A stretch of 64,000 bases of DNA from Thiothrix unzii (lineage in GTDB: Bacteria; Pseudomonadota; Gammaproteobacteria; Thiotrichales; Thiotrichaceae): positions 434,001 through 498,000 of the forward strand of contig NZ_CP072793.1 in assembly GCF_017901175.1 (NCBI RefSeq), written 5' to 3'. Both the position numbers and the translations under genes were made by a program. A model generated the notes under the pieces. That model saw nothing but the letters and a program-made list of their open reading frames with translations. It had not been told where the DNA came from and searched no databases. This document shows positions 33,279 through 58,950 of the stretch, piece after piece. Within the stretch, counting starts at the first letter, position 1. Each line of letters starts with the position of its first letter.

Positions 33279-35321
33279 ATGTCTCATCCTCCTTCCTCGC
33301 TTGGGTTGCGCATCCTTTGGCTGTGCTTAATCTTGCTACTACTTCCTGCGTTGGCGAATGCTGCGCCGAGCGTCACTATTGGCAGATTTGGTCCCGGTAC
33401 GATTGATGGTACTGCACCATTCAAGGTTTTGGGTGCTTGCGCTGATGATGCTGATCAAGATATTGACGGCGAGGACTGCGGTGAAAGCAACGGCGTGGTG
33501 CGTACCCAAGATTCGGTGAGCCACATTTGGTCGATTACCGCTGATGGCTATGTTCCCGGTGCGCCTAATTTAAAGAATGTGGTGCTGGAGCAAATTATCA
33601 AGCCGAGCACGAATGCAGTCGTTCAATTTGATAGCTTGCCAGTTGCCTGTACCCCTAAAGCTGGTGGGGGGAGTAAACCTGCATCTGGTATTGTGGATAA
33701 CGGAAATGGCAGTTGGAAGTTAACCTGTAACCTTGGTGAATTCAGTGAAGGTCAGCAGAAGTCACTGACGGTTAACGTGAAAATTTCAGGTAAGTCATGG
33801 AACGGATCAGATTATATCTCTAGTCAGCGGGTCTATTCGGTCGCGGATGACGGCGTTACTGAGAATGCGGCAGGTGCTTCCTATGCTGATGTTGGCCCCA
33901 TTAAGATTTCAGCACAGCCTGCTTATGACTTGGTGCACTCTATTAATACCACGCACGGTTTTTATAATGCGGATACGGGGGTGCGTGCTGTTAAAGACTT
34001 GAACGGTGATGGCGTTATTAATACTGCGGACAACGAAGCAGGTTATTACACCTATAGCTTAATTCGTTTGGCGGCTGCCAGAAAAACGGGTATTGAGGCA
34101 GTTACCCAGCCGATTGAGTTTAAAGATACCTTTAAGGCGACAGCATTAGCCGAGAATGGCGCAGATTTTCCGTTAGAGTTTTATGTCACAGAATGTAGAG
34201 ATAACCCCTCGCAATGGGGTGGTGAAGTATTTGGTAGCAAAAGCTATTACTCTTCGTTTGATAACTATTCTTATAAATACCATGCGTTGAATTCTGGAAC
34301 TTGTCAGTTGGTACGAGATACTCCGGCTGATCCGACCTCTGTAGCGTTTACCGCAACGTTAAATAATGTTGATTTATCCGGTACGCATTACCCGGCTTTA
34401 GGTTTTGGTGGTGTTGATTATTCAGCGGGCCCTTATTATGCCGCTGATTACCGCGTGCAGTTTTTCATCCCTTTCCGTTCGATTGATATGACCGACGGGG
34501 TGATGAATGACCAAGGTAGTGTTTATCTGTCCAGTGTATTGAGTGGCTTTGACCCGCAGAGTATGTCAGGTGTCTCGAACTACGGTACAGATGTCGAGCC
34601 AGGGTACGATGGGGCACAAATGAATGGGTTACGCGGCAATAACCGTTTAGGCCCCACACAATATTTATTAACAGTTGCCGGTAGTTTTGATAAGCGGAAT
34701 GTCAAGAATGTCGATAACTCGGTGACTAATTACATTCATACTAGCCCATCGTCTTATCATGGCGGTGACGGTGAAATGGAGCCGGAGCAAGCATATGCTG
34801 GTTTTGTGTACTTTTTGAATAATGGTACGAAAGCCCTGCAAAATCCAGTAGCTTGCGATGTGTTTGATAATACTGTGCAACGCTTGACTGATCGTAGTGA
34901 CACGGGTGGCACGGCTACGCCGGGTACTTATGCGTATGTGGGTACGTATGCACCTAATGGTTTTGACTACCGTAATTATGTGGTGGAGTATGCACACATT
35001 GATTTGACGGGTGATGACCCGATTGATCGCAACCACGATGGCACAACGGATTATGATATTACTACGGGACGTTACCGAGGGGATTGGAGCAAAGCGCGTG
35101 CCGCACGTTGTGATGATGCCGCACCTACTGGTGGTTGGTTTACTGATCCGAGTCAAGTTCCGGGTGGTATTGATAACGTTAACGCAGCCCGCGCCCGCTT
35201 GAGTGACACTGCAAAAGCGGCTGGAATTGCATTTGACCCTGGGCATCAAATACGTTTTGCCGTACCTTTAAAAACTGATGTTACGCAGTCCGACCTCTCC
35301 TCGACTATATTTCAGGTATGA
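33279..35321 (+). pseudogene. Giant IPTL-CTERM surface protein, N-terminal fragment
   Basis: Start ATG preceded by AGGGG; signal peptide residues 1-30 ending ALANA. Residues to 665 are a DUF11-like beta-sandwich region without SdrD repeats. After codon 665 (aaa, 35271-35273) the frame enters the insertion sequence, adds 15 foreign residues and stops at TGA 35319-35321, giving a 680-residue secreted fragment with no anchor. Together with 36389-53302 this is one gene: joining 35273 to 36389 restores VPLK-IRDK in frame and a protein of 6302 residues. The fragment could still be secreted, but would lack repeats and sorting signal. Confidence 0.92.
35269..35273. repeat. Target site duplication TAAAA, left copy
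   Basis: TAAAA directly before the left inverted repeat matches 36384-36388 directly after the right one. An alternative reading moves the boundary by one base, but only this one gives a five-base duplication that also restores the reading frame. Confidence 0.85.
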
Positions 35322-36383
35322 ATCAAACACGTCTTGACCTCTACACCGACTACCTGACCGTGACCTTTGGCTACGCCACAGCAACGGGTTTATCCCAATT
35401 ATTGGACGGCGAAATTAGCCACGATGCGATCAGTCGTTTTCTTTCGGGAGATGAGTACACCTCGAAAGACCTGTGGAAACAGGTAAAAAAGACCGTCAGG
35501 GAGGTCGAATCAGCCGATGGCATCCTGATCATCGACGATACGGTGCAAGAAAAGCCCTACATGGACGAAAACGATCTAATTTGTTGGCATTACGACCACT
35601 GCAAAGGGCGTAATATCAAGGGAATCAACTTGTTAAACTGTCTATATCATAGCAATGGTGCATCCATTCCTGTTGCATTTGAACTGATACGGAAACCGTT
35701 CCGTTTCTGTGACATCAATACACGCCAAGAAAAGCGGTGCAGCGATGTCACCAAAAATGAGCAAATGCGCTCCATGATTGACACCTGCATTCAAAACCAA
35801 CTGACATTTTCATGGGTGTTGAGCGACATTTGGTTCGCCTCCGCCGAGAATATGGAACACATCAAGGAGAAACGGCAAAAGGACTTCATTATGGCATTGA
35901 AAAGTAACCGATTAGTGGCATTGAGCGAAGTAGACAGCAAGGCAAAACGTTACACACGACTCGACCAATTGGTATGGACAGAACAAAAAGCCATCAAGGG
36001 CTGGTTGAAGGGGCTAACCTTCCCCGTCAAGCTCGCCCGGCAAGTCTTTACGAACAAAGACGGCAGCAGCGGCATTTTGTATCTGGTCTGTAGCCGCTTG
36101 GCAGCAGAGTGGGACGAAATCACGACAACCTACCAAAAACGGTGGAAAGTCGAGGTCTTCCATAAATCGCTCAAATCCAATGCTGCCTTTGCGAAATCCC
36201 CTGCCCACACCGCTAAAACACAAGCGAATCACTTATTCGCCTCCATCGTCGCCGTCTTCAAAATGGAGTGTTTGACCATCAGCAAGCATCTTAACCACTT
36301 TGCCTTGCGTTCAAAGCTCTACGCCAAGGCAATTCGGGGCGCTTTTGATGAGCTACAGGTGCTTAGGGCTGCGTAACATCAGT
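35274..36383 (+). mobile_element. Insertion sequence, 1110 bp, probably IS701 family (ISAba11-like)
   Basis: Perfect 15-bp terminal inverted repeats, ACTGATGTTACGCAG at 35274-35288 and its complement at 36369-36383 (16 bp if the adjacent A/T is counted), enclose a single transposase gene and are flanked by TAAAA on both sides. Size, single 352-codon transposase and five-base duplication resemble ISAba11-type members of the IS701 family; that family name is from memory and not checked. Ends, gene and duplication are all intact, so the element looks recently active. Confidence 0.93.
35318..36376 (+). CDS. DDE transposase of the insertion sequence
   Basis: 352 residues, apparently complete. Catalytic acids: LIIDDTVQEKP (Asp73 or Asp74), WVLSDIWFAS, and the YQKRWKVEVFHKSLK block whose glutamate completes DDE. 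WHYDHCKGRNIKGINLL is typical of this transposase group. Its ATG overlaps the stop of the interrupted host frame (ATGA at 35318-35321), so ribosomes translating the giant gene fragment could re-initiate on it. The stop lies inside the right inverted repeat. Confidence 0.93.
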   Translation: MNQTRLDLYTDYLTVTFGYATATGLSQLLDGEISHDAISRFLSGDEYTSKDLWKQVKKTVREVESADGILIIDDTVQEKPYMDENDLICWHYDHCKGRNIKGINLLNCLYHSNGASIPVAFELIRKPFRFCDINTRQEKRCSDVTKNEQMRSMIDTCIQNQLTFSWVLSDIWFASAENMEHIKEKRQKDFIMALKSNRLVALSEVDSKAKRYTRLDQLVWTEQKAIKGWLKGLTFPVKLARQVFTNKDGSSGILYLVCSRLAAEWDEITTTYQKRWKVEVFHKSLKSNAAFAKSPAHTAKTQANHLFASIVAVFKMECLTISKHLNHFALRSKLYAKAIRGAFDELQVLRAA

Positions 36384-36388
36384 TAAAA
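36384..36388. repeat. Target site duplication TAAAA, right copy
   Basis: Second copy of the five-base duplication; the interrupted gene resumes at 36389 with ATT CGC GAT. Confidence 0.85.
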
Positions 36389-38842
36389 ATTCGCGATAAA
36401 TTCTATTCAGGATCTTATGCAGGACAAACCATTCCGGTCGGAACGGTTGCAGCTAACTTTGGTGGGGTACGTTCCGATAACTGGGCATCAGGGTGGACAG
36501 CGCGTAACTACGATGCAGCACCGGAAACCGGGCATACTGATGGCGACCGCGTTACCATTTCGCGCATTAAAATCACGCTGGATTCTGAATCATTAGAGCC
36601 AAAAGCGATACAGGGCAACACTGCAAACACCTTGGCGGGTAGTCAAATTGTTTGGAAGGTGAATACAGCGGTGCAATCCACCTTGGCAAAACCCTCGGCA
36701 GCAGAAAACCTACAAATTATTGACGAATTGCCGCCGGAAGCCTCTTATAACGGTAGTTGTACTGCTGCTCAAACAGGAGGTACACCACCCAGTTTGGTAG
36801 AATACAATAAAGACCGTTATGGTAATGCCAAACTCGGTTACACACGTTTGTTGTGGAATTTTGGCAATGTCACCGCGAACACGATTATTCCGCCACGTAT
36901 TTTCTGTACAGATACTGATCCGCTTGCGCCGCACGGCACATCGGTTGTCAATTATGCTGAAATCCGTGCCGATAATGTGATTACTGCACTGTCCGCACGT
37001 TCAGACACTCACTCGATTCGTTTGGAACAAACTGGCTCAATTCAGGTTGCCAAGAAAGTGGATATGCCACTGGATGACCTGGATGATGATCAGGTATACA
37101 CATTGTCTTGGGCAAACTTTGCACCTGCATTCAAGATCAATAAGCCGACCATTATTGATGTGTTGCCATTTATGTCCGGCGATGGTGATGGCGCGGATGC
37201 GAAATCTGCGCGTACTCCGGCTTCCAATTTCCACGGTAAATTGACGCTGACGGCTGCCCCGACAATCACATGGTTGGATGGTAACTCGCCAACTGGTGCT
37301 GATCCTTTCCCGACCTTGGGTGATTGGTTTTACAGCTCTGACGCACCGGAAACGATTAATTACAATCCTGATGACAATGCGACTGAAGCCACTACGAAAT
37401 GGTGTTTGGAATCGGCATTTGGTACATCAGGTTGTCCTGCTAATTTTGCAGCAGTCACCGCGTTGAAATTTGTTTCCCATTATGACTTGGAAAAAGATGG
37501 CAATCCACGCAAAGGGATGACAGCACAGTTTACCCTGCAAGCAGGCGACACGACTGATCCTAATTCTGCGAATGCAAATAAACCGGGTGATATTTACACC
37601 AACCGTTTTGCGTTTGACACCACTTCCATTGACCCGCCGCAATTCCTGCGTTCCAACAATGTGTCGGTGCAAGTGGCTGCGTATTCCATTGGTGACTTCA
37701 TTTTTGCTGATAATAACCAAAATGGTATGTATGACGCGGGTGTGGATGCGCCTGCGCCGGATGGCGTAACCGTCGATTTGTATAACAGTGCGGATAAGAA
37801 AATTGCTACCACTACGACGGGTGTGGTCGGTGCAGGACGGTTCTTGTTCCAGCCACTGTCTTCAGGCAGTTATTACGTCAAAATTCCAGCAAGCCAATTC
37901 CAAACCGGCGGCAAGTTGTTTGGTTGGAAAACCGGTCTGTTGTCAGAAGATGCGAAAGAAGCTGACGATAAAAACGAAGCTGTTGACCAACACGGTTACA
38001 GCGTCAGCGGCGTGACCAGCAGTGGCGTGCGTACCGGTTTGATTGAATTGTCTGCAAACCCGCCACCACCGGGCGGCGTACCTACCGGTAATGAACCAAC
38101 GGGTGATAATGCGCAGCCAATTGCCGACCCAACCGGCGACGACTTTTCCAACCTGACACTCGACATCGCATTGATTCCGCCTCCGTCCAGCTTGGGCGAT
38201 ACGGTGTGGAACGACATTAACCAAAACGGTATTCAGGACGTGGGTGAGCAAGGGCTTTCCAATGTGCTGGTGAAATTGCTGAATAAGTCCGGCGTGGAAC
38301 TGAAAAACGTGCGTACCGATGGCGCGGGTAAATACGTGTTTACCGAACTCGCGGGTGGTGAATATTTCGTGGAAGTCGTGAAACCGACTGGCTACTTCGG
38401 TTCGCCAAAAGACCAACTGGCTGATGATCTCGCCGATAGTGATGTGGATGCGGCAACAGGTCGTACCGCGCTGATTACTTTGGGTGTCGGGGTCAATCTG
38501 GTCGACGTGGATGCAGGTTTGTATAAAGCGGCGGGTATTGGCGATCGTGTGTGGTTGGATAGCAACGCGGACGGTAAGCAAGACCCGACTGAAACTACCA
38601 ATCTGGCGAATGTTACCGTGGTGCTGAAAAGCGGTACGGATGCGGTATTAGCAACCACCACCACCGATGCTAACGGTAACTATTTGTTCAGCGGTTTAAA
38701 GCCCGGTTTCTACAAAGTCGATATTGAGGAAACCGATGCTGATTTGGTGGGTTATTCCCTGACCAGTAACAATGATCCGCACAGCGTTACCTTGGCAGAA
38801 GGCCAAGCGTATGTGGATGCTGACTTTGGCTTCATTAATTAC

Positions 38843-41587
38843 GCCTCTGTGGGTGATTTAGTGTGGGAAGACCTCAACGGTAACGGCTTACAAGACGCGG
38901 GTGAACCGGGTGTGGCTGGTGTCGTGGTGCGCTTGCTGGATAAAACCGGCGCGACAGTGGTTAAAACCACAACGACTGACGCAAACGGGCTGTATTTGTT
39001 CAGCAGCGTTTTGCCGGGTGAATACTTGGTGGAATTTGCTAAACCGGCGGCCTATAAGGGGTTCGTTACTGCTGATCAAGGTGCTGATAACGCCAAAGAT
39101 TCTGATGTGAATGTGTCAACGGGTCGTACTTCTTCCTTTGTTCTGGCGGGTGCAACCAATCTGCGTGACATAGACGCGGGCTTGTATAAAGCGGCTAACC
39201 TCGGCGATACCTTGTGGTTTGATGCCGATGCGGACGGGGTGCAAGATGTCAACGAAGTCGGGGTTTCCGGTGTACGTGTGACCTTGACCGGGACGCGCGG
39301 TGATGGTGTGGCACTGACAGCAGTGGATACCAATACCGATGCTACTGGTAAATACGCTTTTACCGATCTGTATCCGGGTAATTACAGCGTTAAATTCAAT
39401 ATCGCGGCGAATATGAAGTTCACCCTGCAAGATCAGGCGGGTGATGATGCGGCGGATAGCGACGTGGTTCCTGCTACTGGTTTGGTAAGCGCGACGCTGA
39501 TTTCTGGTGCAAGCAACACTACGCTGGATGCCGGGGTATTGCCTGCCACCGTCAGTGGTCGGGTGTGGAGCGATAACAATACGCACAACAGCATTGACGA
39601 CGACGGCGTGGAAAATGGCGTGGTCGGTGTTACCGTCAATTTGATGGATGCTGCTACCGGCAAAGTCGTTGCCACTACCACCAGTGGTGTGAATGGTGCT
39701 TACTCGTTCACGGGCGTATTGCCGGGTAACTATAAAGTGCAAGTGCTGCAACCTGCCAATATGGAATTCGTATTGAAGGATGAAGGCGGTAACGACACTA
39801 AAGACAGTGACGTAGACCCAGCAAATGGCACCAGCCACAGCTTCCCGGTTGCTTCCGGTGACGCGATTGTGGATGTCGATGCAGGGATTAAACCGGGTTC
39901 GTTAGGCGACCGGGTGTGGTTAGACCTCAACGGCAATAACTTGCAGGATAGCGGTGAACCGGGCGTGCCTAATGTTGTGGTGAATTTGCTCGATGGCACG
40001 AATGCGGTGGTGGCAACACAAACCACGGATGCTACCGGCTTCTACAATTTCGCTGCCCTGTTGCCGGGTAATTACACCGTGCAATTTGTGCCACCCGCAG
40101 GCATGACCTTGGTGGGCGCAAATCAAGGCAAGGACGATACCCTCGATTCCGACCCGGCTGGTGATGGCAAAGTTGCTGTAACCGTCGTTTCCGGCGTGGG
40201 TAATCAAACCGTGGATGCGGGCATTGTGCCTGCGAAACTGGGTGATTACGTGTGGTTGGATAGCAACGGCGACGGCAAGCAAGATGCAGGTGAACCGCCG
40301 GTTGTAGGCATGACGGTGAAACTGTTGGATAAACTCGGTGCGCCAGTATTGGATGCGGGTGGCAATGCCATGACCGCTACCACGGATGCGGCGGGCAAAT
40401 ACCAATTCAGTGTATTGCCGGGTGAGTACAGCGTGAAATTTGTGTTGCCAGCCAATGCAGCCTTCACCCAAAAGAACCAAGGTGCGGCGGATAAGGATTC
40501 CGATGCTGATATTACGACGGGTGTAACCGCTGTCGTGACGGTAGCTTCGGGGGCGGATAATCCAACGCTGGACGCTGGTTTGGCAACGGCACGGATTAGC
40601 GGTGCGGTGATTAAAGACGCGAACGCTAATGGCGTAAAAGATGCGGGTGAAGTCGGCATTGCAGGCGTAACCGTTACCCTGAGCGGGGTTGATGCGCTGG
40701 GTCATAGCGTGAATGCAACTGCTACCACCGATGCGAACGGTGCGTACAACTTTGCGGTATTGCCGGGAACTTACACCCTCAAAGAAACCAATCCGGTTGA
40801 TTACCTGTCCAGCGGCAGCATTGCCGGAACTGCGATAGGTGCAGCAGTGGTGTCGGTGGATGAATTAACCACGCCAGTACCGGGTGGTGGTGTTTCTGCC
40901 AACAACGATTTCTTGGATTACCACATCGGTAGCATTGCGGGGCAAGTGCGCCATGATGCGGATTACGATGCAAGCCTGACAGATACGGATGAAGGCATTG
41001 CCGGTGTCACGATTACTCTGTTTACCGATCCGAATAACGACGGCAATCCGGCTGATGGCGTAAGTGTGGCGACGGCGACGACTAACGCTACCGGCAATTA
41101 CCTGTTTAGTGCAGTGAAACCGGGCAGTTACGTCATTGTTGAAACGGATTTGGATAAATGGGAATCAACGGCGGACATTCAAGCGGCAAACGATAACCGC
41201 ATTGCGCTGGCGTTGGCTTCCGGTCAAGACAGTATCGGTAACGATTACCTCGATGCCAAACGTAAAGGCAGCTTGAGCGGTGTGGTGTGGACAGATGCGA
41301 GCAGCAATGGCGCACGTGATGCGGGCGAAACAGCGTTAGCGAATGTCACAGTGTTGGTGCTGGATTCAGCGGGTAATACCGTAGCCACGTTGACCACACT
41401 GGCGAATGGTTCGTACCGTGCGGATAACTTACCGCCGGGAACCTATAGCGTGAAAGTCACCACGGCGACGTTGCCAGCCGGTGTATTGCAAACGGCTGAC
41501 CCTGACGCACTCAAAGATCACCAGACTTCAGCGGCAGTGAATGCCGGTGCGGAAACCAGCGGTTTGGATTTTGGTTACGTGGGTAGT
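38843..41587 (+). repeat. Super-repeat 1 (eight domains, 2745 bp)
   Basis: Starts at ASVGDLVWEDLNGNG and holds eight SdrD_B-like domains in the order SVGDLVW, NLGDTLW, VSGRVW, LGDRVW, LGDYVW, ISGAV, IAGQV, LSGVVW. The same order recurs in the following units. Confidence 0.88.
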
Positions 41588-44329
41588 GCCAGCGTTGGTG
41601 ATCGGGTGTGGGAAGACCTCAACGGTAACGGTGAGCAGGACGCGAATGAAAACGGTGTTGCCGGTGTAACGGTGCGCTTGTTGAACAGCGCGGGTGACAC
41701 GGTGATTAAAACCACCACCACTGACGTGAACGGTGAATACCTGTTTACGCACCTTGCGCCGGGCGATTATCAGATTGAGTTTGCGAAACCAGAAACCTTC
41801 AGCGGTTTTGTGACTGCCAAACAGGGCGGGGATACTGCGAAAGATTCCGATGCGGATTTGCTGACCGGGCGCACTGCGGTATTTACCTTGGCGGGCGGTG
41901 CAGCACCACGCGATGTGGATGCAGGTTTGTATAAAGCCGCTAACCTTGGCGATACCTTGTGGTTCGATGCAGATGGTGATGGCAAGCAAGACGTAAACGA
42001 AGCGGGCATGGCTGCGACGACGGTTACATTGACCGGTACACGCGGTGATGGTACGGCAATCACTGCCACCGATGTCACTACTGATGCAGCGGGTAATTAT
42101 CGCTTTAGCAACCTGTATCCGGGTACTTACAGCGTGAAATTCAACCTGCCAGCAGGCATGGGCTTTACCCTGCAAGATCAAGGTGCGGACGATAGCTTGG
42201 ATAGCGACGTAGCCGCAGCCGGTACAGTTTCCGCCACCTTAAAATCAGGTGAAACCAATTTGACACTGGATGCCGGGGTACGCCCAGCCAGTATTAGCGG
42301 TCGGGTGTGGAGTGATAACAATACCCCCAACAGCATTGACGATGACGGTGCGGAAAACGGCGTAGTTGGGGTAACGGTTAACTTACTTGATGCTACCAGC
42401 GGTAAAGTCATTGCTACTACCACCAGTGGTGCGGATGGCGTTTACACCTTCACTGGCGTAGTGCCGGGTAATTACAGCGTGCAAGTGCTGCAACCTGCCA
42501 ATATGGAATTCGTCCTCAAAGACGAAGGCGGTAACGACACCAAAGACAGCGACGTAGACCCTGCGAACGGCACTAGCCACAGCTTCCCGGTTGCTTCCGG
42601 CGATGCGATTGTGGATGTCGACGCGGGGATTAAATCCGGCTCTTTGGGCGACCGCGTGTGGTTGGATCTCAACGGCAATAACCTGCAAGACAGCGGCGAA
42701 CCGGGCGTGCCTAACGTTACCGTGAAATTGCTCGATGGCACCAATAAGGTTGTTGACACCAAAACTACCGATGCTTCCGGCTTCTACAACTTCGCAGCCG
42801 TTTTACCGGGTAATTACACCGTGCAGTTTGAAACCCCGGCAGGCATGACGCTGGTGGGTGCAAATCAAGGCACGGATGACACATTGGATTCCGACCCTTC
42901 CGGCGATGGCAAAGTCGCGGTAACAGTGGTTTCCGGTGTGGGTAATCAAACCGTGGACGCAGGTGTTGTGCCAGCGAAACTGGGCGATTACGTGTGGCTG
43001 GATACCAATGGCGATGGCAAGCAAGACGCGGGCGAACCGCCTGTTGCAGGCATTACCGTAGCATTGCTGGATAAAGCCGGTGCGCCCGTATTGGATGTTG
43101 CGGGTAATGCGGTAACAACGCTGACCGATGCAGCGGGTAAATATCAGTTTGTGGTATTGCCGGGTGAATACAGCGTGAAGTTTACCTTGCCAACCGGCGC
43201 GGCATTTACGCAGGCGGCGCAAGGTACAGCCGAACAGGATTCCAACGCGGATACCACCACCGGCAGCACGACCAGCGTTACCTTGGCTTCGGGCGCAAGC
43301 GATCAAACCTTGGATGCAGGTTTAGCTCCGGCACGCATTAGTGGTACGGTGCTGAAAGATCTCAATGCCAACGGCGTGAAAGACAGCGGCGAAACCGGTA
43401 TTGCAGGTGTAACCATTACCCTGACGGGTGTGGATGCGTTAGGCCAGCCAGTCACCGCGACAGCGACGACCGATGCTAACGGCGTATACAGCTTTGCAGT
43501 ATTGCCGGGAACTTACACCCTCAAGGAAACCACGCCTGTGGATTACCTCTCCAGCGGTAGTTTGGCAGGTTCGGCAACGGGTGCGGCGATTGTTAACGAA
43601 GATGAATTGACCACACCAGCAGTGGGTGGCGCAACTTCCGAACACAATGACTTCCTCGATTACCGCGTGGGCAGCATTGCGGGTCAGGTGCGTAATGACA
43701 GCGATTATGACGGCAGCTTTGCTGATGCCGATGCGGGTATCGCTGGTGTCACGATTACGTTGTTTACCGACCCTGATGGCAACGGCGATCCGGCGGATGG
43801 TGTCAATGTTGGCACAGCAACTACCAATAGCGCGGGCAGCTACGTGTTTAACGCAGTGAAACCGGGCAATTATGTAGTCGTGGAAACCGACCTTGAGCAG
43901 TGGGCTTCCACCGCCGATATTCAAGGTGGTAACGATAACCGCATTCCGTTGGCGTTGGCTTCGGCACAAACCAGCACGGGTAATGATTTCCTCGATGCGC
44001 AACAAAAAGGCAGCTTGAGCGGTGTAGTGTGGACAGATGCAAAACCGGACGGGATGCGTGAGCCGACCGAAACCGGTTTAGCCAATATCAAGGTATTGGT
44101 GCTGGATGCTGACGGTAAGACCGTGGCTACCCTGCAAACTACGCCAGACGGTGCGTACAAAGCCGAAGGTTTGCCACCCGGTAAATACAGCGTGAAAGTG
44201 GATGCCACCACGTTGCCAGCCGGTGTATTGCAAACCGCTGATCCTGACGCACTCAAAGATCATCAGACTGCTACGACAGTAACCGCAGGCGCGGAAACTA
44301 GCGGGTTGGATTTTGGTTACGTGGGTGCT
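41588..44329 (+). repeat. Super-repeat 2 (eight domains, 2742 bp)
   Basis: Begins ASVGDRVWEDLNGNG, with the same eight domain types in the same order as unit 1. Some stretches are identical in protein to unit 1 but differ at many synonymous sites. Confidence 0.88.
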
Positions 44330-47089
44330 GCGGCCTTGGGTGACAAGGTGTGGGATGACCTCAACGCTAACGGCTTGCAAGACGCGGGTGAACCGGGTGT
44401 GGCAGGCGTGACCGTGCATTTGCTGGATGCCAGCGGCATGAATATTCTCAAAACCACCACCACGACTAGCGCGGGGCTGTACCGTTTTGAACAATTGTTG
44501 CCGGGTGATTACCGTGTTGAATTTAAGAAACCGGAAACTTATGCAGGCTTTGTAGCGGCAGATGTTGCCCCGGATGAAGCTGCTGATTCCGATGCGGTTG
44601 ATATTCAAGCGGTAGCAGGTGCGGTCAATGGACGTACTGCGGTAATTACTTTGGCGGGTGGCGCGAATCTACTCGACGTGGATGCGGGTCTGTATAAATA
44701 CGCCAGCATCGGCGATGTGGTGTGGTTTGACAGTAACGGCGATGGCATTCAGCAAGCGTCTGAAACCGGTGTGTCGGGTGTGACGGTGACGTTGGGCGGT
44801 AAGTTGGGCAATGGCAATGATGTGCCACCACAAGCAGCGCAAACCGATGCGAACGGCAAATACCAGTTCAGCAACTTGTATCCGGGTGCTTATGACGTTG
44901 TGTTCACGTTACCGACGGGAATGGCGTTTACCACCCAAGACGAAGGTACAGATTTGATCGACAGTGACGCGGCAGCCGATGGCAAAGCCAGCGTTACGCT
45001 CAAGTCTGGTGAAAACAACCAAAGCATTGATGCAGGCGTGCAACCGGCTACCGTAACAGGGCGTGTTTGGACTGACAGCAATACCGCTAATGGCGTGGAA
45101 GATGCTCCAGAAACGGGTGTGATTGGTGTCAGTGTGAGCTTGATTAACACCGCCACCCAAGCGGTTGTGGCAACCACTACCACAGGTGCGGATGGCGTTT
45201 ACACCTTTACGGGCGTATTGCCGGGTAGCTACCAAGTGCAGGTGCAAGAGCCAGCGAACATGGGCTTTGTGGAACAAGACAAAGGCGGCGATGATGTCAA
45301 AGACAGCGATGTTGGCGTGGAAGATGGTAAGAGCCATACCTTTAACGTTGCTTCCGGCACGACTGTCAGTGACGTAGACGCGGGGATTGCAGCCGGTGCG
45401 TTGGGCGACCGCGTGTGGCTGGATCTCAACGGCAATAACTTGCAAGACAGCGGTGAACCGGGCGTTGCCAACGTGGTGGTGAATTTGTTGGATAGCAAGG
45501 GTGCAACCGTCGATACCCAAACTACCGATGCGAATGGTTTCTACAACTTTGCAGCGGTACAACCGGGTGATTACAGCGTGAAATTTGTGCCACCTACCGG
45601 TATGACTTTTGTAACTGCGAAACAAGGCACAGACACCACGCTGGATTCCGATCCGGCAGCGGATGGCGAAGTGAAAGTGACGGTGATTTCCGGTGTAGGT
45701 AATCAAACCGTGGATGCGGGGATTGTGCCTGCCAAACTCGGTGATTACGTGTGGCTGGATTTGAACGGTGACGGTACGCAAGGCGCGGGTGAGCCTGCGG
45801 TTGCGGGTGTTACGGTTAACTTGCTGGATAAAGAAAGCAATCCGGTGAAAGACGCGGGCGGTAATCCATTAACCGCGTTGACGGACGCTACCGGTAAATA
45901 CCAGTTCACGGTATTGCCGGGTGAATACCGCGTTGAGTTTGTATTGCCGGATTTGGCAGCGTTTACCAAGCTCAAACAGGGTGCGAATCCAGCCGCCGAT
46001 TCGGATGCGGATTTGACCACAGGTATTACCGCAGCGGTAACAGTGGTTTCCGGTGACAATCATCAGGATTTGGATGCTGGTTTACCGCCAGCCGTCGTGT
46101 CTGGTTACGTGATTGAAGACACTAATGCTGATGGCAACTTGGATGCGGCTGAAACTGCACTGAAGAACGTGACAGTAACGTTGACTGGCACGGATGTCTT
46201 CGGTACGCCAGTGACCGCAACCACCACTACCAATGATAACGGTGAATACAGCTTCACGGTTCCGGCAGGGAATTACACGCTGGTAGCGACTAATCTGGTG
46301 GATTACCTCTCCAGCGGTAGCCAGCCGGGGACAGCAACCGGGGCAGCCGTGGTGAATGCGGATACCTTGACTACGCCAGTGAGCAGCGGTGGTAAATCGG
46401 AAAACAACAACTTCTTCGATTACCGCGTGGGCAGCATTGCGGGTCAGGTACGTAATGACCTTAACTACAATGGCAACCCAGCCGATACTGACAATGGTAT
46501 TGGTGGGGTAACTATTACCCTGTTTACTGACCCAGACGGCAATGGTGACAGCAGCGATGGCGTGCAAGTGGCGAAAACCGCTACCGACAGCGAAGGTCGT
46601 TACCTGTTCACTAACCTGAAACCACAAAATTATGTGGTGGTGGAAGCGGACTTGGCTAAGTGGCAATCCACTTTTGACGTGACCGCGCCTAATGACAATA
46701 AGGTGTTGGTGGTATTGGCTTCGGCACAAAATAGCACGGGTAATGATTTCCTTGATGCATTGCAAAAAGGCACATTGACCGGCGTAGTGTGGACAGACAG
46801 CGATACCGACGGGATACGTGACCCTGACGAAGCATTGCTGGCAAACATTACGGTTACTGTGGTGAATGCTGCGGGTGAAACGGTTGCGACGCTGACAACG
46901 GGCGCGGATGGTGTGTATACCGCAGCGGATTTGCCGCCGGGTGATTATACCGTGAAGGTTGACCCAACGAGCTTGGCAGCAGGTACGCAGCAAACCGGCG
47001 ATCCTGATGGTTTGTTTGATCATCAGACACCAGCGGAAGTGTTGCCGATGCAAACCACTAGCGGTCTGGACTTTGGTTACATTGGTTTA
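44330..47089 (+). repeat. Super-repeat 3 (eight domains, 2760 bp)
   Basis: Begins AALGDKVWDDLNANG; same domain order, more diverged than units 1 and 2. Confidence 0.85.
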
Positions 47090-49819
47090 GTGTCGGTGGG
47101 CGATAAAGTTTGGCACGACCTCAATGCTAACGGGGTGCAGGATGCGGAAGAGCCGGGTCTGGCAGGTGTGATGGTTACGCTTTACCGCGACGTGAATGCA
47201 GACGGTGTGGCGCAAGCAACTGAGCAGGTCAAAGCCAGCTTTACTGCAACCAATGGTGAATACCGCTTTGAGCAATTGTTGCCACTGGATTACCTCGTGA
47301 CCTTTAGCTTGCCGGATGGCTATCAGCGCAGCCTTGCCCAGCAGGGTGATGATACGGCGTTGGATTCCAATGCTAATGCTAGCGGTGTGGCTGCGGTGAG
47401 CTTGAAATCAGGTTCTTCAACGGCGGTGGATGCGGGTTACTACCAGTTGGGCAGTATCGGCGACTACGTGTGGTTGGATGTTAACGAAGATGGTATTCAA
47501 AACGCTAAAGAACCAGCGATTGTGGGTCTGGAAGTGCAATTGCTCAATAAAGCAAGTGAAGTGGTAGCGACTACCACCACCAATGCGGAAGGGCAGTACC
47601 TGTTCAATAACAAGATTCCGGGCGATTACAGCGTCAAGTTTGTGACACCGGAGGGCATTGTCCTGACCAAAACGGCACAAGGCGATAACCGTGCGGCGGA
47701 TTCTGATCCGGCAGCGAATGGCAGTGCCTTGGTAACATTGGTTTCCGGGCAGCACTTGCGTGATACGGATGCGGGCATTTTGCCAGCCGCGATTAGCGGT
47801 CGGGTATGGATTGACCGCAATGCGAATGCGCAGGATGACACGGAATCCGGTGTGGTCGGTGTCAGCGTGAAACTGGTGGATGTAAAAACCGGTGAAATGG
47901 TGGCGACGACTACCACAGGTTCGGAAGGCCAATACAGCTTTAGCGGTATCTTGCCGGGTGAATACCGTGTGGAAATTACCCAGCCTGCCAATATGAAGTT
48001 TGTTACTCCTGATACCGGTGGTGACGATGCAGTGGATTCCGATGTGCAAATCGCCGACGGTCATAGCCCTAACTTTGTGCTGAAATCGACCGATAGCGTG
48101 ACCAACCTTGACGCGGGTATTGAACCTGGCGGCTTGGGTGATCGTGTGTGGGTTGATGAAAACCTCGACGGAATACAGGACGCTGGCGAACTCGGTTTGG
48201 CAAATGTGACGGTTAACCTGCTGGATAGCAGCGGTAAAACGGTGCTGACGCAAACCACGGATGCCAACGGTTTCTACAACTTTACCGGGGTATTGCCGGG
48301 TGAATACCGCGTGCAAGTGGTATTGCCGGAAGGTGCGCAATTTACTGCAACCGACCGTGGTACTGACGACGATCTGGATTCCGATGTTGATGCGGCTGGG
48401 AATGTGGCAGTGACTGTGGTTTCCACCGTCGGCAATCAAAGTGTGGATGCGGGCGTAAAACCTGCGCTGATTTCGGGCGCGGTGTTGGACGATCTGAACG
48501 CCAATGGGGTGCAAGACGCTAACGAACCAGTGGTTGCTGGTGTGGTGATTACGCTGACCGGTACGGATTTGCTGGGTAATCCTGTGATTAAAACCACGAC
48601 TACCGCTGCGGATGGCACGTACAGCTTTATTGTGCCGCCGGGTACTTACAGCATCACTGAAACCACCCCTGACGGTGCGGTTTCCACCGGTAGCGAAGCC
48701 GGAACCCAAGGCAGTACTGTGGTAAGCATGGATGTGGTGAGCGTAGTGGTGACCAGTGGTCAAACTTCCACGCAAAACGACTTCCTGAATTACCAGCCAG
48801 CCAGTATCAGTGGGCAAGTGCGTAATGACATCGACGCTGATGCTGCATTCGCAGATCTGGAAAGTGGGGTGGCCAATGTCAGCGTAACCTTGTGGCAAGG
48901 CGACACCCAAATTGGTACGCCGACAACGACGGATGCGAACGGGTTCTATACCTTTACAGGCTTGAAACCGGGTGTTTACAGCGTGCGTGCAACCGATCTC
49001 GACGGCTGGATTTCCACCGCTGATGTGGAAGGTGCGAACGACAACCAAATCAACGTAACCGTAGCCTCTGGCGAAGACAAACTGGCGCAGGATTTCCTCG
49101 ATAGCGGTTTGGGTAGCATTGGCGATACCGTGTGGTTGGATGCCAATGAAAATGCATTGCAAGACCCGAACGAAGTGGGTATCAGCGGCATTACGGTGGT
49201 GTTGTCCGGTGCGGATGGCGCAGGTCTGGCGGTGAATGCAACCACTACGACCGATGCTAACGGCAAATACAACTTTGCTGGGTTGAAGCCGGGTGTTTAC
49301 ACCGTGGAGTTCACATTACCTGAAGGAATGCAGTTGGTTCCGGCAGCGCAAGGTGCGGCACGCGAGTTGGATTCCGACCCGGATATGATCAGCCGTAAAG
49401 CGACTATTACCCTGTTGTCGGGTGAGCAAAACCGTGATCTGGATGCGGGTGTTGCACCAGCAATCTTGATGGGTTTTGCATGGGAAGACACCGATGGTAA
49501 TGGTCAGGCTGATCCGTTTGAGCCGATTTTGCCGGGCGTGGGGGTGACGGTGTTCACTGACCCTAACGGTGATGGCGATCCGGCGGATGGTGTGGCGGTA
49601 GCGACAACGACGACCAACCCTAATGGTGAATACGAAGTGGCTGGTTTGTTGCCGGGAGCTTACGTTGTGGTGGTGAATCCGCCAGCAACCTACACACTGG
49701 TGGCACAAGACCAAGGCAATGACGATGGCGTGGATAGCGATATTCGTCCTAACCTGAGTGTGCCAGTGACCTTGGTATCGGCTGACATCAGCAGTGTGGA
49801 TGCGGGCTTCTACCGTGCG
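47090..49819 (+). repeat. Super-repeat 4 (eight domains, 2730 bp, shuffled end)
   Basis: Begins VSVGDKVWHDLNANG. Eight domains, but one (the LGDYVW type that should follow LGDRVW) appears in second place and the last two (SIGDTVW, LMGFAW) are of altered type, so the order has been rearranged. Confidence 0.75.
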
Positions 49820-52276
49820 GGTGGCTTCGGCAATCGCGTGTGGCTGGACGTTAACGCCAATGGTGTTCAGGATGAAAGTGAACCTTCAGTACGTGATGTG
49901 ACGCTGGTATTGCTGGATAACGCGGGTAATCCGGTGATGCGTCCGGCGGTTGATCAAGAACCACCAATGCCTTACCGCGTAGTGAGCGACGTGAACGGTT
50001 TGTACCAGTTCACAGGCTTGTTACCGGGTAAGTATCAGGTGCAACTGGAAGACATGACGGGCTTTGTGTTTACCCAAACCGATGCTGGTGCAGACGATGC
50101 GAAGGATAGCGATACCAATGCTAACGGCCGCATGACTGCATTAGTAACCTCGGATGGCTTTAACGACACAGTAGACGCAGGGGTATTGCCTGCCAGTGTG
50201 ACCGGGCGCGTGTGGCTTGACCACAGTGCCAGCAACGGCACGGATGATGGCCTGTACGATGAGCCGGGCGCGGTGGGGATTACGGTTAACTTGCTGGATA
50301 AAAACGGCACTATCGTAGACACAACCACGACAGGCGCGGATGGCATTTACCACTTCACTGGCGTATTGCCGGGTGAATACCGTGTCGCGTTCGTGATGCC
50401 GGAAACCCTGAAGCTGGTGGAGAAAGGTGTGGGTGAAGACTTGGCGGTGGATTCTGACGCTGATCCTGAAACCGGGTTGACTGATGCGTTTACCGTGACT
50501 TCGACCAATACCATTACTAATCTGGATGCCGGTGTTGTTGCCGGGGCATTGGGTGATCGGGTCTGGACTGACCTCAATGAAAATGGAATGCAGGACGAGG
50601 GCGAGCCGGGTGTTGCTGGCATTACCGTGAAGCTGATTAATGCCAAAGGTAAAACGATGGATACTCAGGTAACGGATGCCAGCGGTTTCTACGCTTTCCG
50701 TGACGTGGCTCCGGCGACTTACAGCGTGCAATTCGTGGTTGGTGCATTGAAACTGACTGCTGCCCAGCAAGGTGAAGACCGTGCAACCGATTCCAACGCT
50801 GATCCGGCAACGGGGATAGCAACGGTAACGGTGGGTTCCGGTACGTCAGGTGATCAAACTATCGACGCGGGTATTTTGCCTGCCAAGATCGGCGATTACG
50901 TGTGGCTGGATAGCAATCGCAACGGCATTCAGGACGAGGGTGAAACACCACTGGCTAACGTCAGCGTTACCCTGCTGAATGAAGACGGCGGTTTTGTGGC
51001 AGCGACGACCACTGATGCCCAAGGCAAATACCAGTTTGCCGTGCCAGAAGGTAAATACAGCATTCAAGTGGTGTCGCTGGACAGCAGCTTTACCCCGGCA
51101 AAACAGGGTGAAGATCGCGCTCTCGACTCCGATGTGGATGCTTCCGGTACAAGTCCGCTGCAAGCTTACCTGTCTGGTTCGCTGAATGACGCGGTGGATG
51201 TGGGCATTACCCCAGCGGTAATCAGCGGTAAAGTGCTGAATGACCTGTGGGCAAATGGCACGATTGAGCCGGAAGATGGCGGCCTTGGTGGGGTAACGAT
51301 TACCGTGACAGGCACGGATAGCTTCGGTAATCCGGTAACGATGACCACGACTACGGGTGAAGATGGCAGTTATCAATTGCTGGTTCCACCGGGTACTTAC
51401 ACCGTGAGCGTTACCCATAAGCCCGGTTTTGTGGCAACAGGCAGCACCCCAGCAACCACTGACGGTAGTGTGGTAATTGACCACGAACACCTGACGGTCG
51501 TAGTGAAAAGTGGCTCGGATGCGAAAGATGCTAGCTTCTTGGCTTACGATCCGTCCACTTGGGTGGCTCCAGCCGGTAAGGTCATTGACGACCACAACCA
51601 CGATACCCAAGCAGGTGTCACTGAACGTGGTTTGGTGGGTGTGAGTGTGGCCTTGTACACCGACCCGAATGGTGATAGTGATCCGGCGGATGGTCGTTTG
51701 CTGGAAACCGTGCTGACGGATGTCAGCGGTACGTTTACCTTTGCGAAAGTACCGCCCGGTCGTTACCTGCTGGTGGAAACTGATCCGGCAAATTATGAGT
51801 CTACCGCTGACAGCGCGGACAAGAATGACAACCGGATTCCGTTTACCTTGGTGGCAAGTGAAGCACCGCAAGGGTTGATGTTCCTCGATGCTGAACCGAA
51901 AGGTAGCCTGACAGGGTATGTCCGTCCTGATCCTGAGCGTAAGGGTGATTTGACCCAAGCCAGTGGCGGTATCGCTGGTGTCACGCTGGAGTTGTTCACC
52001 GATCCTGATGGTAATGGCGACCCGTCTGATGGTGTGCGGATTGCAACGGTGGTAACGGATGCAGACGGGCGTTATGCCTTTGATGAAGTCATTACCGGTC
52101 ATTACGTCATCGTCGAGAAGGATAAACCGGCGCACATTTCCACGGCTGATCGTTCAGAAGGCAACGATAACCGCATTCCGGTGCTGGTATCGGTGGCAGA
52201 CGGTAAAAACACCTGCACCTTGCCGGATGGTAATGTGGGTTGTACCGGGCTGGACTTTCTTGATAGCGCACTGAAA
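49820..52276 (+). repeat. Super-repeat 5 (seven domains, about 2457 bp)
   Basis: Begins GGFGNRVWLDVNANG. Seven domains; the second type of the full unit (NLGDTLW) is missing and the sixth is degenerate (begins GKVIDDHNHD). The end is set at the last DFLDS segment. Confidence 0.72.
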
Positions 52277-53321
52277 AGCGAGATCAAATTGCTGAAAACC
52301 GCTTACCAAGGCCACGACGCAGGTGCGAAATGTGGTACGGATGCGGCAACCAGCGAGTTGAGCATCGTTGACATCGACAAGGACAAGCAGGAAAACGTGA
52401 CTTACTGCTTCGAGATTACCAATCCGGGTGAAACTGGCTTGGCACAAATCGCACTGGTCGATAACACGCTGAATCTGACTGCTGCACAGCTTAAGCCGCT
52501 GGGTACTGTACCGACTTCGTTAGTACCGCTGAGTAAGGATGCAAATGCGCGGATTCGTTACTACTACGAACACCGTATTACCACCAGCTTGGTGAATACC
52601 GCGACAGTCACCGCGAAACCGGTGTTGGAAGACGGTACGGTGTTTGATGCGGAGCTGAATGCACAAGATGAAAGCACGGCGAAACTGCACTTCATCTTTG
52701 ATCCGCCGAGTGCTTACAAAACCGTTACCGCTACCGGCGATTACGTGATGTTGTGGCAAATGGTGTGGATCAATAGCAGCAGCGACAGCGTAGCTAAGGT
52801 CAAGGTCTACGACGGTGTACCGGAAGGTACGCACTACGCGGCAATGTCTGCGGGTGAGTTTGTCAGTGCGGACGGTGTTTACTGTGAAGCGCGTGGCACA
52901 TCCGTTACTGAAACGTGTAAGTACGAAGCTCCAAGTGCCGATTACCCACGTGGTCGGGTGATTTGGATCGGTACGATTGGCGCGGATGTGGGTAATGTCA
53001 CCGAGGCTACGGCGGCGAACGAAGTGGTCATCCGCTTCTACAGTATGCTCGACAAAGCAGGTGAACAGCAGACCATTTCCAACCAAGCGCATTCAAGCTG
53101 GGATTTGGACGGCGACGGTAAACCGGAGTACGACGACATCACTACCGACAATGGCGGTACGGATGATCCGAACGATACTACCGACATCTCGCTGGGTTCT
53201 GCGGCGCAAATCCCGACTTTGGGTGAGTGGAGCTTGCTATTCCTGAGTTTGCTGATGGTGTGGGTGGCCTTTGGCTACCAACGCCGGGGGCGCAAAGGCT
53301 AAGTAAGTGTAACTGGCAATG

Positions 53322-55930: not shown

Positions 55931-55998
55931 GTTCCCCGTAGGGGCGTATCGAATACGCCTTTTCTCCTAATCATAAAAAACCAATGAGAGTCAAAACC

Positions 55999-57360
55999 AT
56001 GTTTAAAATGAAACCCATCGCGAGTTCCATCGCACTGTCGCTGATGACAGGCATTGCTGTTGCTGCTGCTCCCGGTGGCGCAATCCTGCAAAACAAAGTC
56101 ATTGCCACCTACAGCGACATTGGCGGCAAAACTTACACTGCTGAATCCAACATTGTTGAAATCAGTATCCGCGAAGTGCGCACTGCAACCTTGACCATCA
56201 CGTCCGGTGCAGAGCAACAAGTGGCGATGATCCCATCCAGCAAGGTCTACAGCGTCCACACCTTAACCAACAACGGTAACGTTTCTGAAACCTACACACT
56301 GGCGGCGGCTAACGTCACAGGCAGCGATGACAGCCTTGATGCAGCCACGCTGAAAGTTTACCTTGATGCCAACGGCAATGGTGTGCTGGATTCTGGCGAA
56401 ACAACACCCATCACGTCTACCACCTTGGCGGCGGGCGCATCGGCTAAGTTGATTGTGGAAAGCGTGTTGCCTGCGGCTGTCGCGCTCAGTGACAAATTAA
56501 ACGTAACCTTGGACGCTACGGATTCCAAAGGTACTGCGGCTGCCAGCACCAATACGGTCAAGATCACGTTCAAAAATAGCAATGTCAGCTATACCCCGGT
56601 CATTTGGGAACAAGCGGCGGGCGGCAACTGCCATGCTTACGCAGGGGTCAATAAAGCACTGTCGTATTTGCCAGCAAAGGCTGATGCAGAAGCGTCGATG
56701 TTCAATGGTAAAATGGGGCATTTGGCAACCATTACCAGTGCAGCAGAGAATACTTTTGTCAAAAATGCCGTCAATAGTAACAACAATAACTACTGGATTG
56801 GTGCAAAACGTACAGGTGGTGCTACCTCGCCATTTGCATGGGTAACGGGTGAGGCATTCTCTTATACCAACTGGATGTCAGGACAACCTGACAATGCAGG
56901 GGAAGATGCACTTGCTTGGCGGTATGACGGCGTATGGCACGACGTAACGAGCAGCGCATCAGCATTTTACGTCATCGAGTTTGATATTGACTGCCCACTG
57001 CCAGCGGTAGCGGTTGAACTAGAAGGTGCAAAAGACATCGCCTGTGATGGCACGGCAGATACGGCTTTTGGTACAGCGAAGTTGGAAGATATGTATTCCG
57101 GTGAGTGTGCAATCCTGCGTAGCCGCGCTACTAACAACGGCAAATCGCTCGCTAAGAATGTGCTGCTGAACTACACCGTGCCGACTTACGCTAGCTATCT
57201 CACCGGCTCAATCAAGTTTGATGGCACAGATCAAACCGATGCAGTAGACGAGGATGCAGGCAAATATGATGCATCTACCAAGCGTGTGTCTGTGTTGGCG
57301 GGTGATTTGGCAGTGGATGCAACTAGCCCATATGCGCAGTTCAGTGTGAAGATCGACTAA
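55999..57360 (+). CDS. Secreted protein with C-type-lectin-like domain, copy 1
   Basis: 453 residues from ATG 55999; 55984 is a possible earlier start, but the paralog begins MFKLKP and both have GAGAG upstream. Signal peptide to about residue 23. Residues 28-195 are a DUF11-like region with a calcium-loop pattern YLDANGNGVLDSGE. Residues 200-332 form a C-type-lectin-like domain: WEQAAGGNCHAY, WIGAKR, YTNWMSGQPDNAGED, and WHDVTSSAS, with the QPD motif (296-299) that in animal lectins goes with galactose-type sugars. Residues 335-453 form a second beta-sandwich. Sugar binding is inferred. Confidence 0.82.
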   Translation: MFKMKPIASSIALSLMTGIAVAAAPGGAILQNKVIATYSDIGGKTYTAESNIVEISIREVRTATLTITSGAEQQVAMIPSSKVYSVHTLTNNGNVSETYTLAAANVTGSDDSLDAATLKVYLDANGNGVLDSGETTPITSTTLAAGASAKLIVESVLPAAVALSDKLNVTLDATDSKGTAAASTNTVKITFKNSNVSYTPVIWEQAAGGNCHAYAGVNKALSYLPAKADAEASMFNGKMGHLATITSAAENTFVKNAVNSNNNNYWIGAKRTGGATSPFAWVTGEAFSYTNWMSGQPDNAGEDALAWRYDGVWHDVTSSASAFYVIEFDIDCPLPAVAVELEGAKDIACDGTADTAFGTAKLEDMYSGECAILRSRATNNGKSLAKNVLLNYTVPTYASYLTGSIKFDGTDQTDAVDEDAGKYDASTKRVSVLAGDLAVDATSPYAQFSVKID

Positions 57361-57528: not shown

Positions 57529-58950
57529 ATGTTCAAATTAAAACCCCTCGCAAGTGCGATTACCTTGTCATTGGTAACAGGCATTGCGGTTGCTGCTGCG
57601 CCCGGTGGCGCAATTCTGCAAAACAAAGTCATTGCTACCTACAGCGACATTGGCGGCAAAACTTACTCTGCCGAATCCAACATCGTTGAAATCAGCATCC
57701 GCGAAGTGCGTAAAGCCACCTTGACCATCACGCAAGGTGCAGAGCAACAAGTGGCGATGATTCCTTCCAGCAAGGTTTACAGCGTCCACACCTTAACCAA
57801 TAACGGTAACGTTTCTGAAACGTTTGCACTGGCAGCGGCCAACCTCACAGACGGTGTTGATACGCTGGATGCTACTGCGGTGAAAATTTACCTTGATGCC
57901 AACGGCAATGGTGTGCTGGATTCTGGCGAAACAACACCTATCACGTCCACCACCTTGGCGGCGGGCGCGTCGGCTAAGTTGATCGTGGAAAGCGTGTTGC
58001 CTGCGGCAATAGCCGTTGATGACGTATTAAAAGTGAGCTTGGATGCCACGGATTCTAAAGGGAATACGGCTTCTAGCACCAGTGCTGATGGGAGTCCTGA
58101 TCTTACCGACAACACTGCCACCATCACTTTCAAAGATACTAACGTTGACTTCACTCCAGTTATTTGGGAGCAAGCAGCAGGTGGTAACTGTCATGCGTAT
58201 GGCGTGGTTAAGAAGAACTTAAGTTGGTGGGATTCACTCGCAGACTCTGACAAATATATCTATAACGGTAAGCGCGGGCGTTTAGTAACCATCGCCAGCG
58301 CACAGGAAAATGCATTTGTCCTGAACGTGGCTAAAGCTCAAAATTCTGGAACATTGTTCATCGGTGGTGGCCGTAAAGTTGGTGGTGGAGCGTTCTTCTG
58401 GGCGAAACCCGGCGTTGCGCAGGCCGCTTGGGATGAGCCATTTGCCTACACTAACTGGAGTACCGCGCAACCGGACAACTCTGCTGGTGCCGAAGCTCAA
58501 ACAGAGATGTATACCGACGGTAGATGGAATGATATTGCCAGCTCAGCTAATAAAGGCTACCTGATTGAATTTGAGATTGACTGCCCACTGCCAAGTGTTG
58601 CGGTAGAGCTGGAAGGTGCGAAAGACGTGGCGTGTGACGGTGAAGCGGATGGTGCTTTCGGCACTGAACGTTTGGCTGAAATGGATTCAGGGCAGTGCGC
58701 GATCTTGCGTACCCGCGCTACGAATGGCGGCAAATCCTTAGCGAAAGGTGTAGATCTGCATTACAGCCTTCCGCAATATGCCTCTTATGTAGCGAATTCA
58801 TTGACATTCGGCGGTGCGGCGAAAACCGATGCAGCGGGTGACGATGAAGGCAAATACGACGCTACCCTGAAGAAAATCATGGTTAATGCGGGTGATTTGG
58901 CAGTCGGTGCAACTAGCCCGAATGCGCAGTTCAGTGTGAAGATCGACTAA
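57529..58950 (+). CDS. Secreted protein with C-type-lectin-like domain, copy 2
   Basis: 473 residues. A tandem paralog of the gene at 55999: the first 160 residues differ at only about 19 positions, including identical signal-peptide end and the YLDANGNGVLDSGE loop. The lectin-like domain (about 210-352) has diverged strongly and carries FIGGGRKVGGGAFFWAK, YTNWSTAQPDNSAG (QPD at 314-316) and RWNDIASSA, with the full WND motif of calcium-binding lectins. The C-terminal sandwich is again similar. It is followed by the same palindromic repeat as copy 1. Confidence 0.82.
   Translation: MFKLKPLASAITLSLVTGIAVAAAPGGAILQNKVIATYSDIGGKTYSAESNIVEISIREVRKATLTITQGAEQQVAMIPSSKVYSVHTLTNNGNVSETFALAAANLTDGVDTLDATAVKIYLDANGNGVLDSGETTPITSTTLAAGASAKLIVESVLPAAIAVDDVLKVSLDATDSKGNTASSTSADGSPDLTDNTATITFKDTNVDFTPVIWEQAAGGNCHAYGVVKKNLSWWDSLADSDKYIYNGKRGRLVTIASAQENAFVLNVAKAQNSGTLFIGGGRKVGGGAFFWAKPGVAQAAWDEPFAYTNWSTAQPDNSAGAEAQTEMYTDGRWNDIASSANKGYLIEFEIDCPLPSVAVELEGAKDVACDGEADGAFGTERLAEMDSGQCAILRTRATNGGKSLAKGVDLHYSLPQYASYVANSLTFGGAAKTDAAGDDEGKYDATLKKIMVNAGDLAVGATSPNAQFSVKID

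Follow-up and report, generated by a model that had tools for sequence, protein, structure and literature searches.

A giant adhesin-like gene of Thiothrix unzii, probably knocked out by a recent IS701-family insertion, and the apparent exchange of its head between species

Within a 64,000-nucleotide stretch of the Thiothrix unzii genome (the window; contig NZ_CP072793.1, positions 434,001 to 498,000, or G000:C2:434001-498000), an insertion sequence (IS) divides the reading frame of a 6302-residue putative surface protein. The gene, which is fibrillar-adhesin-like, has very probably been inactivated by a single transposition, recent and essentially random, of an ISAba11-type IS701 element. The insertion site lies within the N-terminal head of the protein, a region that itself appears to have been exchanged between species. 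The T. unzii genome (G000; 3.72 Mb in 8 contigs) was compared within a set of 57 genomes, of which 16 form the genus group, its own being counted in both; the relatives named below are labelled G001, G003, G006, G009, G010, G011, G014, and G015, and individual loci carry L-numbers. All features of the window lie on the forward strand.

Split Frame and Inserted Element

The 5′ part of the gene (33279..35273) is open from the ATG at 33279 through codon 665 (AAA, 35271-35273) and, as it stands, reads 15 codons into the element to a stop at 35319-35321, giving 680 residues. The 3′ part (36389..53302) comprises 5637 codons and one terminal stop (53300-53302), is open in phase with the 5′ part, and by eye shows no export signal of its own. 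The earlier note on this DNA had described a 6302-residue gene split by a mobile element, and this description holds: both frames are open in the same phase, and 665 + 5637 = 6302 residues, encoded by 18.9 kb once rejoined. The clean insertion and the junction given there are likewise borne out, but the dimensions of the element are not, since the element measures 1108 bp and its target duplication is the 7-bp TTAAAAA, in place of 1110 bp and TAAAA. The latter reading assigns one base of each TTAAAAA copy to the element; both remove 1115 bases and yield the same junction. At 35318-35321 (ATGA), the transposase start codon shares bases with the stop codon that ends the truncated adhesin frame, which makes translational coupling possible in this copy.

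The element occupies 35275..36382 and is bounded by the left (35268..35274) and right (36383..36389) copies of the target duplication, as delimited by comparison of the seven identical copies in the genome. Its termini, CTGATGTTACGCAG...CTGCGTAACATCAG, pair at 16 of 17 terminal bases, forming short terminal inverted repeats. The transposase gene (35318..36376, 352 residues) scores 357.7 bits against the IS701_2 model (NF049921, cut-off 250) and matches Pfam DDE_5 (PF13546); its scores against the other IS701 models, NF033540 and NF049999, fall under their cut-offs. The protein is 53% identical over its full length to the product of a plasmid-borne gene whose annotation reads "group ISAba11 transposase" (CP024913). 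On these matches, the element is assigned to the ISAba11 group of the IS701 family.

The seven copies lie at seven different sites, with 0 differences over 1108 bp each. Six are flanked by an exact 7-bp duplication (TTAATCA, TTCATCA, TTAAAAA, TTATGTG, TAATGTG, and TTATGAT); four of these six start with TTA, and the targets share little beyond a T-rich start. Some match to the element is present in 7 of the 16 genus genomes, its own included, with full-length copies at 93-94% in G001 and G006 and no match in G010, the genome with the most similar head. All four copies examined in relatives (two of nine matches in G001 and both in G006) also have exact 7-bp duplications, so that 10 of the 11 copies examined across the three genomes carry one. 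The copy without a duplication (L004, G000:C4:15521-16629) follows a truncated serine-protease-like frame and likely reflects a rearrangement or deletion. Copy L001 interrupts a metY-like gene (O-acetylhomoserine sulfhydrylase), and copy L002 interrupts zapE. With one duplication taken out, the reading phase matches on the two sides of each site, and each pair of halves covers successive portions of its family profile (positions 1-361 and 361-420 of 425 for the metY-like gene, 1-304 and 303-344 of 344 for zapE). Copy L007 sits just before a GntR-type regulator frame. The scatter is that of an ordinary active element, with seven copies in seven targets of this genome and no return to one preferred site.

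Related genomes were checked for an uninterrupted gene, and five from the genus carry it in a single frame of, counted in codons from stop to stop, 6391 (G010), 6390 (G015), 5456 (G014), 5483 (G011), and 5469 (G001). In a sixth, G003, the gene lies in several frames. The 5′ part is matched in 14 of the 57 genomes, its own included, among them 7 of the 16 in the genus; the same seven give strong C-terminal matches, and an eighth, G009, gives weak ones only. A search of contigs with an alignment as query retrieved 18 loci; a first scan had returned 0 matches. In G010, the closest intact homologue, the bases that match the two flanks are directly adjacent (17625/17624 of L023). Given this adjacency and the exact 7-bp duplications at the copies, the split is not a matter of chance.

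Recency and Consequence of the Insertion

The earlier note had also called the insertion recent, a claim that agrees with the seven identical element copies, the absence of any stop in the 5637 downstream codons, and low ratios of nonsynonymous to synonymous substitution rates (dN/dS) in both gene parts. Over 5167 stalk codons compared with G003, codons touched by gaps being left out, 406 synonymous and 87 nonsynonymous changes give a dN/dS of 0.064. The head compared with that of G010 gives 0.080 for its first part (658 codons) and 0.051 for its second (436 codons), although synonymous divergence is near 0.9 there and the method correspondingly rough. These substitution patterns indicate strong past purifying selection on both parts over the compared spans, and the reading as a decayed gene was rejected on the low dN/dS together with the stop-free 3′ part.

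The same note had argued that so long a frame would quickly gather stops if it were not selected. The frame is indeed open, but the argument is by itself weaker than it was made out to be, because a stop arises from only 1336 of the 50,733 single-base changes that the 3′ part allows (2.6%). The absence of stops bounds neutral divergence at 0.0067 per site, only about 0.7%, or at 0.0017 if frameshifts are assumed to occur at 0.08 per substitution. Recency is better supported by the identical element copies: if their spread was star-like, the rule of three (3/7756) bounds divergence at about 0.0004 per site.

As the gene stands, the most that its 5′ part would give is an exported fragment of 680 residues, devoid of stalk and sorting tail. 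The 3′ part, lacking an export signal, is probably not made. The outcome would be a fresh loss of function, either fixed or confined to part of the population, in which the element would use no dedicated switching system. Several points weigh against this account. The sequence of one assembly fits a fixed loss and a mixed population alike, and the downstream frame is so well kept that it leaves room for a switch. Gene conversion could partly explain the identical copies, and a duplication length typical of the ISAba11 group or of its family was not found in the literature searched. Moreover, the gene in G003 is itself divided among several frames, which could be real decay.

In G003, a tract of some 40 kb (window coordinates ~38,190 to ~80,000; loci L032, L062, L107, and L108, G003:C1 105000-174900) is 94-98% like the T. 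unzii genome within a background of 83-91% and starts near the border between head and stalk. Its stalk holds 22 frame-breaking gaps, and 16 phase-breaking gaps lie just downstream. Of the CCGGG/CCCGG sites in the stalk, 16 of 69 show a deletion; the figures are 5 of 11 immediately downstream and 3 of 47 in the rest of the tract, as against 0 of 18 upstream and 0 of 40 beyond the tract. In view of these counts, the broken frames are likely sequence error, and G003 was not taken as an example of natural decay; as some breaks fall outside the motif, real decay keeps a certain probability. The tract could have been genuinely imported, with the head/stalk border as its left limit, or could stem from a mixture of strains in the assembly; the stalk dN/dS does not depend on which applies, and errors in G003 would raise its value. 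G003 also carries a second aceK elsewhere, at 85%.

The suggestion in the earlier note that the insertion acts as an on/off switch for a costly surface protein did not find support. Such a reversible phase switch would need precise excision at a useful rate, leaving part of the population able to make the protein; IS492 in Pseudoalteromonas and IS256 in staphylococci are said to work as IS-based phase switches. The open downstream frame and the perfect 7-bp duplication around the element speak for a switch here, yet recency explains the sequence equally well, the seven copies have seven targets, and two of the others split genes without a surface role, one metabolic and one for cell division. 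Each flank occurs once in the assembly, and a search of the T. unzii genome turned up no further junction, no additional copy of the head, and no preferred site. On the scatter of copies, a switch is unlikely, and an ordinary knockout is the likelier explanation.

A scenario in which the assembly has joined or mixed strains, with the insertion carried by only a fraction of the sequenced population or else an artefact, is more doubtful again. The division of the genome into 8 contigs would allow it, but the duplication is exact at both ends, the six further copies each have flanks of their own, the contig bearing the window measures 3.58 Mb, and the listed completeness and contamination of the genome are 100% and 0.95%. 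Hardest to credit is an old inactivation after which the 3′ part was kept for its own use, for example as a stalk protein made from an internal start. A 5556-residue frame is open from a TTG at 36632, and the purifying signal in the stalk is strong; that signal, however, covers everything from the divergence of the G003 tract onward and cannot be assigned to the period after the insertion, the start of the 3′ part has by eye no export signal, and the seven identical copies argue for recency. The split gene itself reads as an ordinary recent transposon hit. The strain is probably a natural knockout for this surface protein of 6300 residues, which is intact in relatives, and could help in asking what role such a protein plays in filamentous sulfur bacteria.

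Protein Architecture and Exchange of the Head

The rejoined protein begins with 30 signal-peptide-like codons (33279..33368), called by eye and conserved in species pairs whose heads differ. The exchangeable head follows in two parts, 33369..35267 and 36389..37690, recognized from identity tables, DNA profiles, and trees; the end of the second part is approximate and taken from the border between G010 and G001 at +3300. The stalk (37691..53209, start likewise approximate) consists of about 43 SdrD_B-like domains and related beta-sandwich matches, followed by a C-terminal region; the count derives from 21 + 22 matched stretches in a protein scanned as two pieces, so one domain may be double-counted or lost. 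An IPTL-CTERM sorting domain closes the protein (53210..53287; TIGR04174, 32.2 bits against a cut-off of 20.5; PF18203). IPTL-CTERM proteins are handled by XrtH, which scores over its cut-off in all 16 genus genomes, T. unzii included; none of the 14 control genomes reaches the cut-off, though one gives a match below it. The protein is left unassigned to SdrD: two pieces, of 800 and 1000 residues, were scanned against the whole-protein NCBIfam models of the MSCRAMMs SdrD and SdrC and score 147.7 and 193 bits against a cut-off of 2500 for SdrD and 125.9 and 157.2 against 1700 for SdrC. This architecture suggests a fibrillar-adhesin-like protein with a putative adhesin function.

Residues 1-664 have no Pfam or NCBIfam match, and the second head part has no Pfam match. 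A predicted model of residues 1-664 is mostly beta-sandwich (mean predicted local distance difference test, pLDDT, 76.2; predicted template modeling score, pTM, 0.66). Its residues 27-211 align with a CLIPPER domain of a Gram-negative fibrillar adhesin (9ifr; Z 10.6, root-mean-square deviation 2.8, 123 aligned), which ranks 24th among the rows listed, the 23 higher-scoring ones being mostly integrins. Foldseek of the head returned antigen I/II, integrins, and pilins among the rows listed, with template modeling scores of 0.10-0.17 by query, which speaks for a beta-sandwich only and for no particular ligand.

The position of the insertion within the head led to what is the more useful part of the result. 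In pieces of 166-200 residues, the T. unzii head is 82-95% identical to that of G010 and 40-56% to that of G003. Identity switches between residues ~1066 and ~1266; beyond this point, most pieces are 95-100% identical to G003 and 50-76% to G010. Five pieces (B2001-B2801) reach 55-87% to G003, other repeats winning there because of the G003 frame breaks. The stalk DNA of T. unzii and G003 is 96.8% identical overall and 96-100% in bins 38189-38563. Comparison of the first 30 residues, residues 31-650, and the last 340 residues gives 100, 49, and 98% identity for T. unzii and G003, 90, 55, and 98% for G010 and G001, and 83, 54, and 89% for G015 and G011. By head type, T. unzii, G010, and G015 belong together (66-89%), as do G001, G011, and G014 (84-87%), with G003 alone (48-49% to all).

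The borders are abrupt in DNA as well. In 150-bp bins, G010 and G001 are 92-99% identical before the ATG, 53-71% from +150 to +3300, and 95-100% after that (to +6000). G015 and G011 are 90-100% identical upstream except for the last bin (81%), 47-74% from +150 to +3150, and 73-94% thereafter. The control gene aceK is 95.4% identical between G010 and G001 and 97.9% between G015 and G011; the heads are therefore far more divergent than the species, and the stalk of G015 and G011 is also more divergent than aceK.

T. unzii pairs with G003, G010 with G001, and G015 with G011 in the trees built from mpl, from the gene next upstream, and from the C-terminus; G014 was left out of the first two, as neither gene lies within the stretch taken. 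The head tree instead groups T. unzii with G010 and G015, and G001 with G011 and G014, and rejects the three species pairs in the approximately unbiased (AU) test (p = 8.9e-6 for T. unzii with G003, 1.7e-5 for G010 with G001, and 4e-61 for G015 with G011), although its G003 branch is long and was flagged by the program. In the tree of the first repeats, two of the three pairs are grouped (p = 0.27 for G015 with G011). Every tree test that rejected did so with an AU p of at most 3.2e-5. Because G003 is possibly a strain mixture, the case for exchange rests on G010/G001 and G015/G011. From the abrupt borders and conflicting trees, we infer exchange of a head of about 1065 residues between species, affecting two close pairs and perhaps a third; the most likely route is recombination within the signal-peptide region and the first repeats of the stalk. 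The exchange marks the head as the likely ligand-binding region and, drawn as it is from close pairs, suggests that specificity may swap on a fixed stalk.

A wider proposal is offered tentatively, with not quite even prospects of being right: the Thiothrix group would possess one giant XrtH-sorted adhesin locus in which the ~1065-residue head is swapped as a cassette between species, with crossovers located in the conserved signal-peptide region and the first repeats of the stalk. Binding specificity would change in this way and the stalk of 4400-5300 residues be retained. Insertions such as the one described here would then be passing "off" alleles, replaceable by the same exchange. As a separate observation on the five intact genes (L023, L026, L029, L030, and L031), a block of about 900 residues near residue 3200 is present in G010 and G015 and missing in the three genomes with a G001-type head; stalk length tracks head type, though the stalks otherwise pair the other way.

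Neighboring Genes and Relation to Known Systems

Upstream of the adhesin locus lie a gene for a GGDEF-EAL protein (27873-29684), mpl, and a UbiX-like gene; the GGDEF-EAL gene and mpl adjoin the locus in five of six compared relatives. Downstream are two adjacent genes with C-type lectin domains (55984-57360 and 57529-58950), each of which partly matches the G003 counterpart of the other (~83-85% at the DNA level). A diversity-generating retroelement acting on these genes was considered; the genome has a single match to the reverse transcriptase family PF00078, at a distance of ~400 kb. From 59866 to 64000 and past the window edge runs a further long open frame (>1378 codons) with DUF11 over its cut-off and a weak GH2_C5 match. 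Elsewhere in the genome, a frame of 4880 codons (L096, G000:C2 ~1794191) bears a weak likeness to the C-terminal region of the giant protein (29%, E 3.4e-5).

Phase variation of surface genes, as reported for IS492 and IS256, resembles the present case in that an element with a clean duplication lies within a surface gene. It differs in that the element here gives no sign of excision, of site preference for the gene, or of both states in the one assembly.

ISAba11 has been reported to disrupt genes in Acinetobacter (PMC7326120, in the part of the text available), and the element described here shares with that group an IS701_2-type DDE transposase, a length of ~1.1 kb, and gene disruption. Set against the group is its 7-bp duplication, often starting TTA, for which the literature searched provided no usual value to compare. 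The giant protein resembles fibrillar adhesins with repetitive stalks, as described in the available portions of two papers (PMC9210967, PMC8286594), in its great length, its N-terminal region devoid of Pfam matches, its repeated SdrD_B stalk, and its C-terminal sorting signal. Unlike those described there, it is Gram-negative, carries an IPTL-CTERM/XrtH signal rather than a Gram-positive wall anchor, and extends to ~6300 residues, with adhesion putative.

Among the matches listed in a literature search that left subscription journals mostly outside, nothing concerned the giant gene or head exchange in Thiothrix. That adhesins arise by domain shuffling, with binding domains on different stalks, is already known from what could be consulted of PMC10952558. 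The head exchange has this in common with such shuffling and, as far as the accessible text of PMC8859334 goes, shares with the reshuffling of BadA in Bartonella henselae that recombination alters the modules of a long adhesin. The BadA case, however, is a within-species reshuffling in a trimeric autotransporter, whereas the exchange proposed here, compared with what these sources contain, would be between species and involve orthologues at one locus in close relatives, in which flanks and stalk are kept and the whole head differs with sharp borders.

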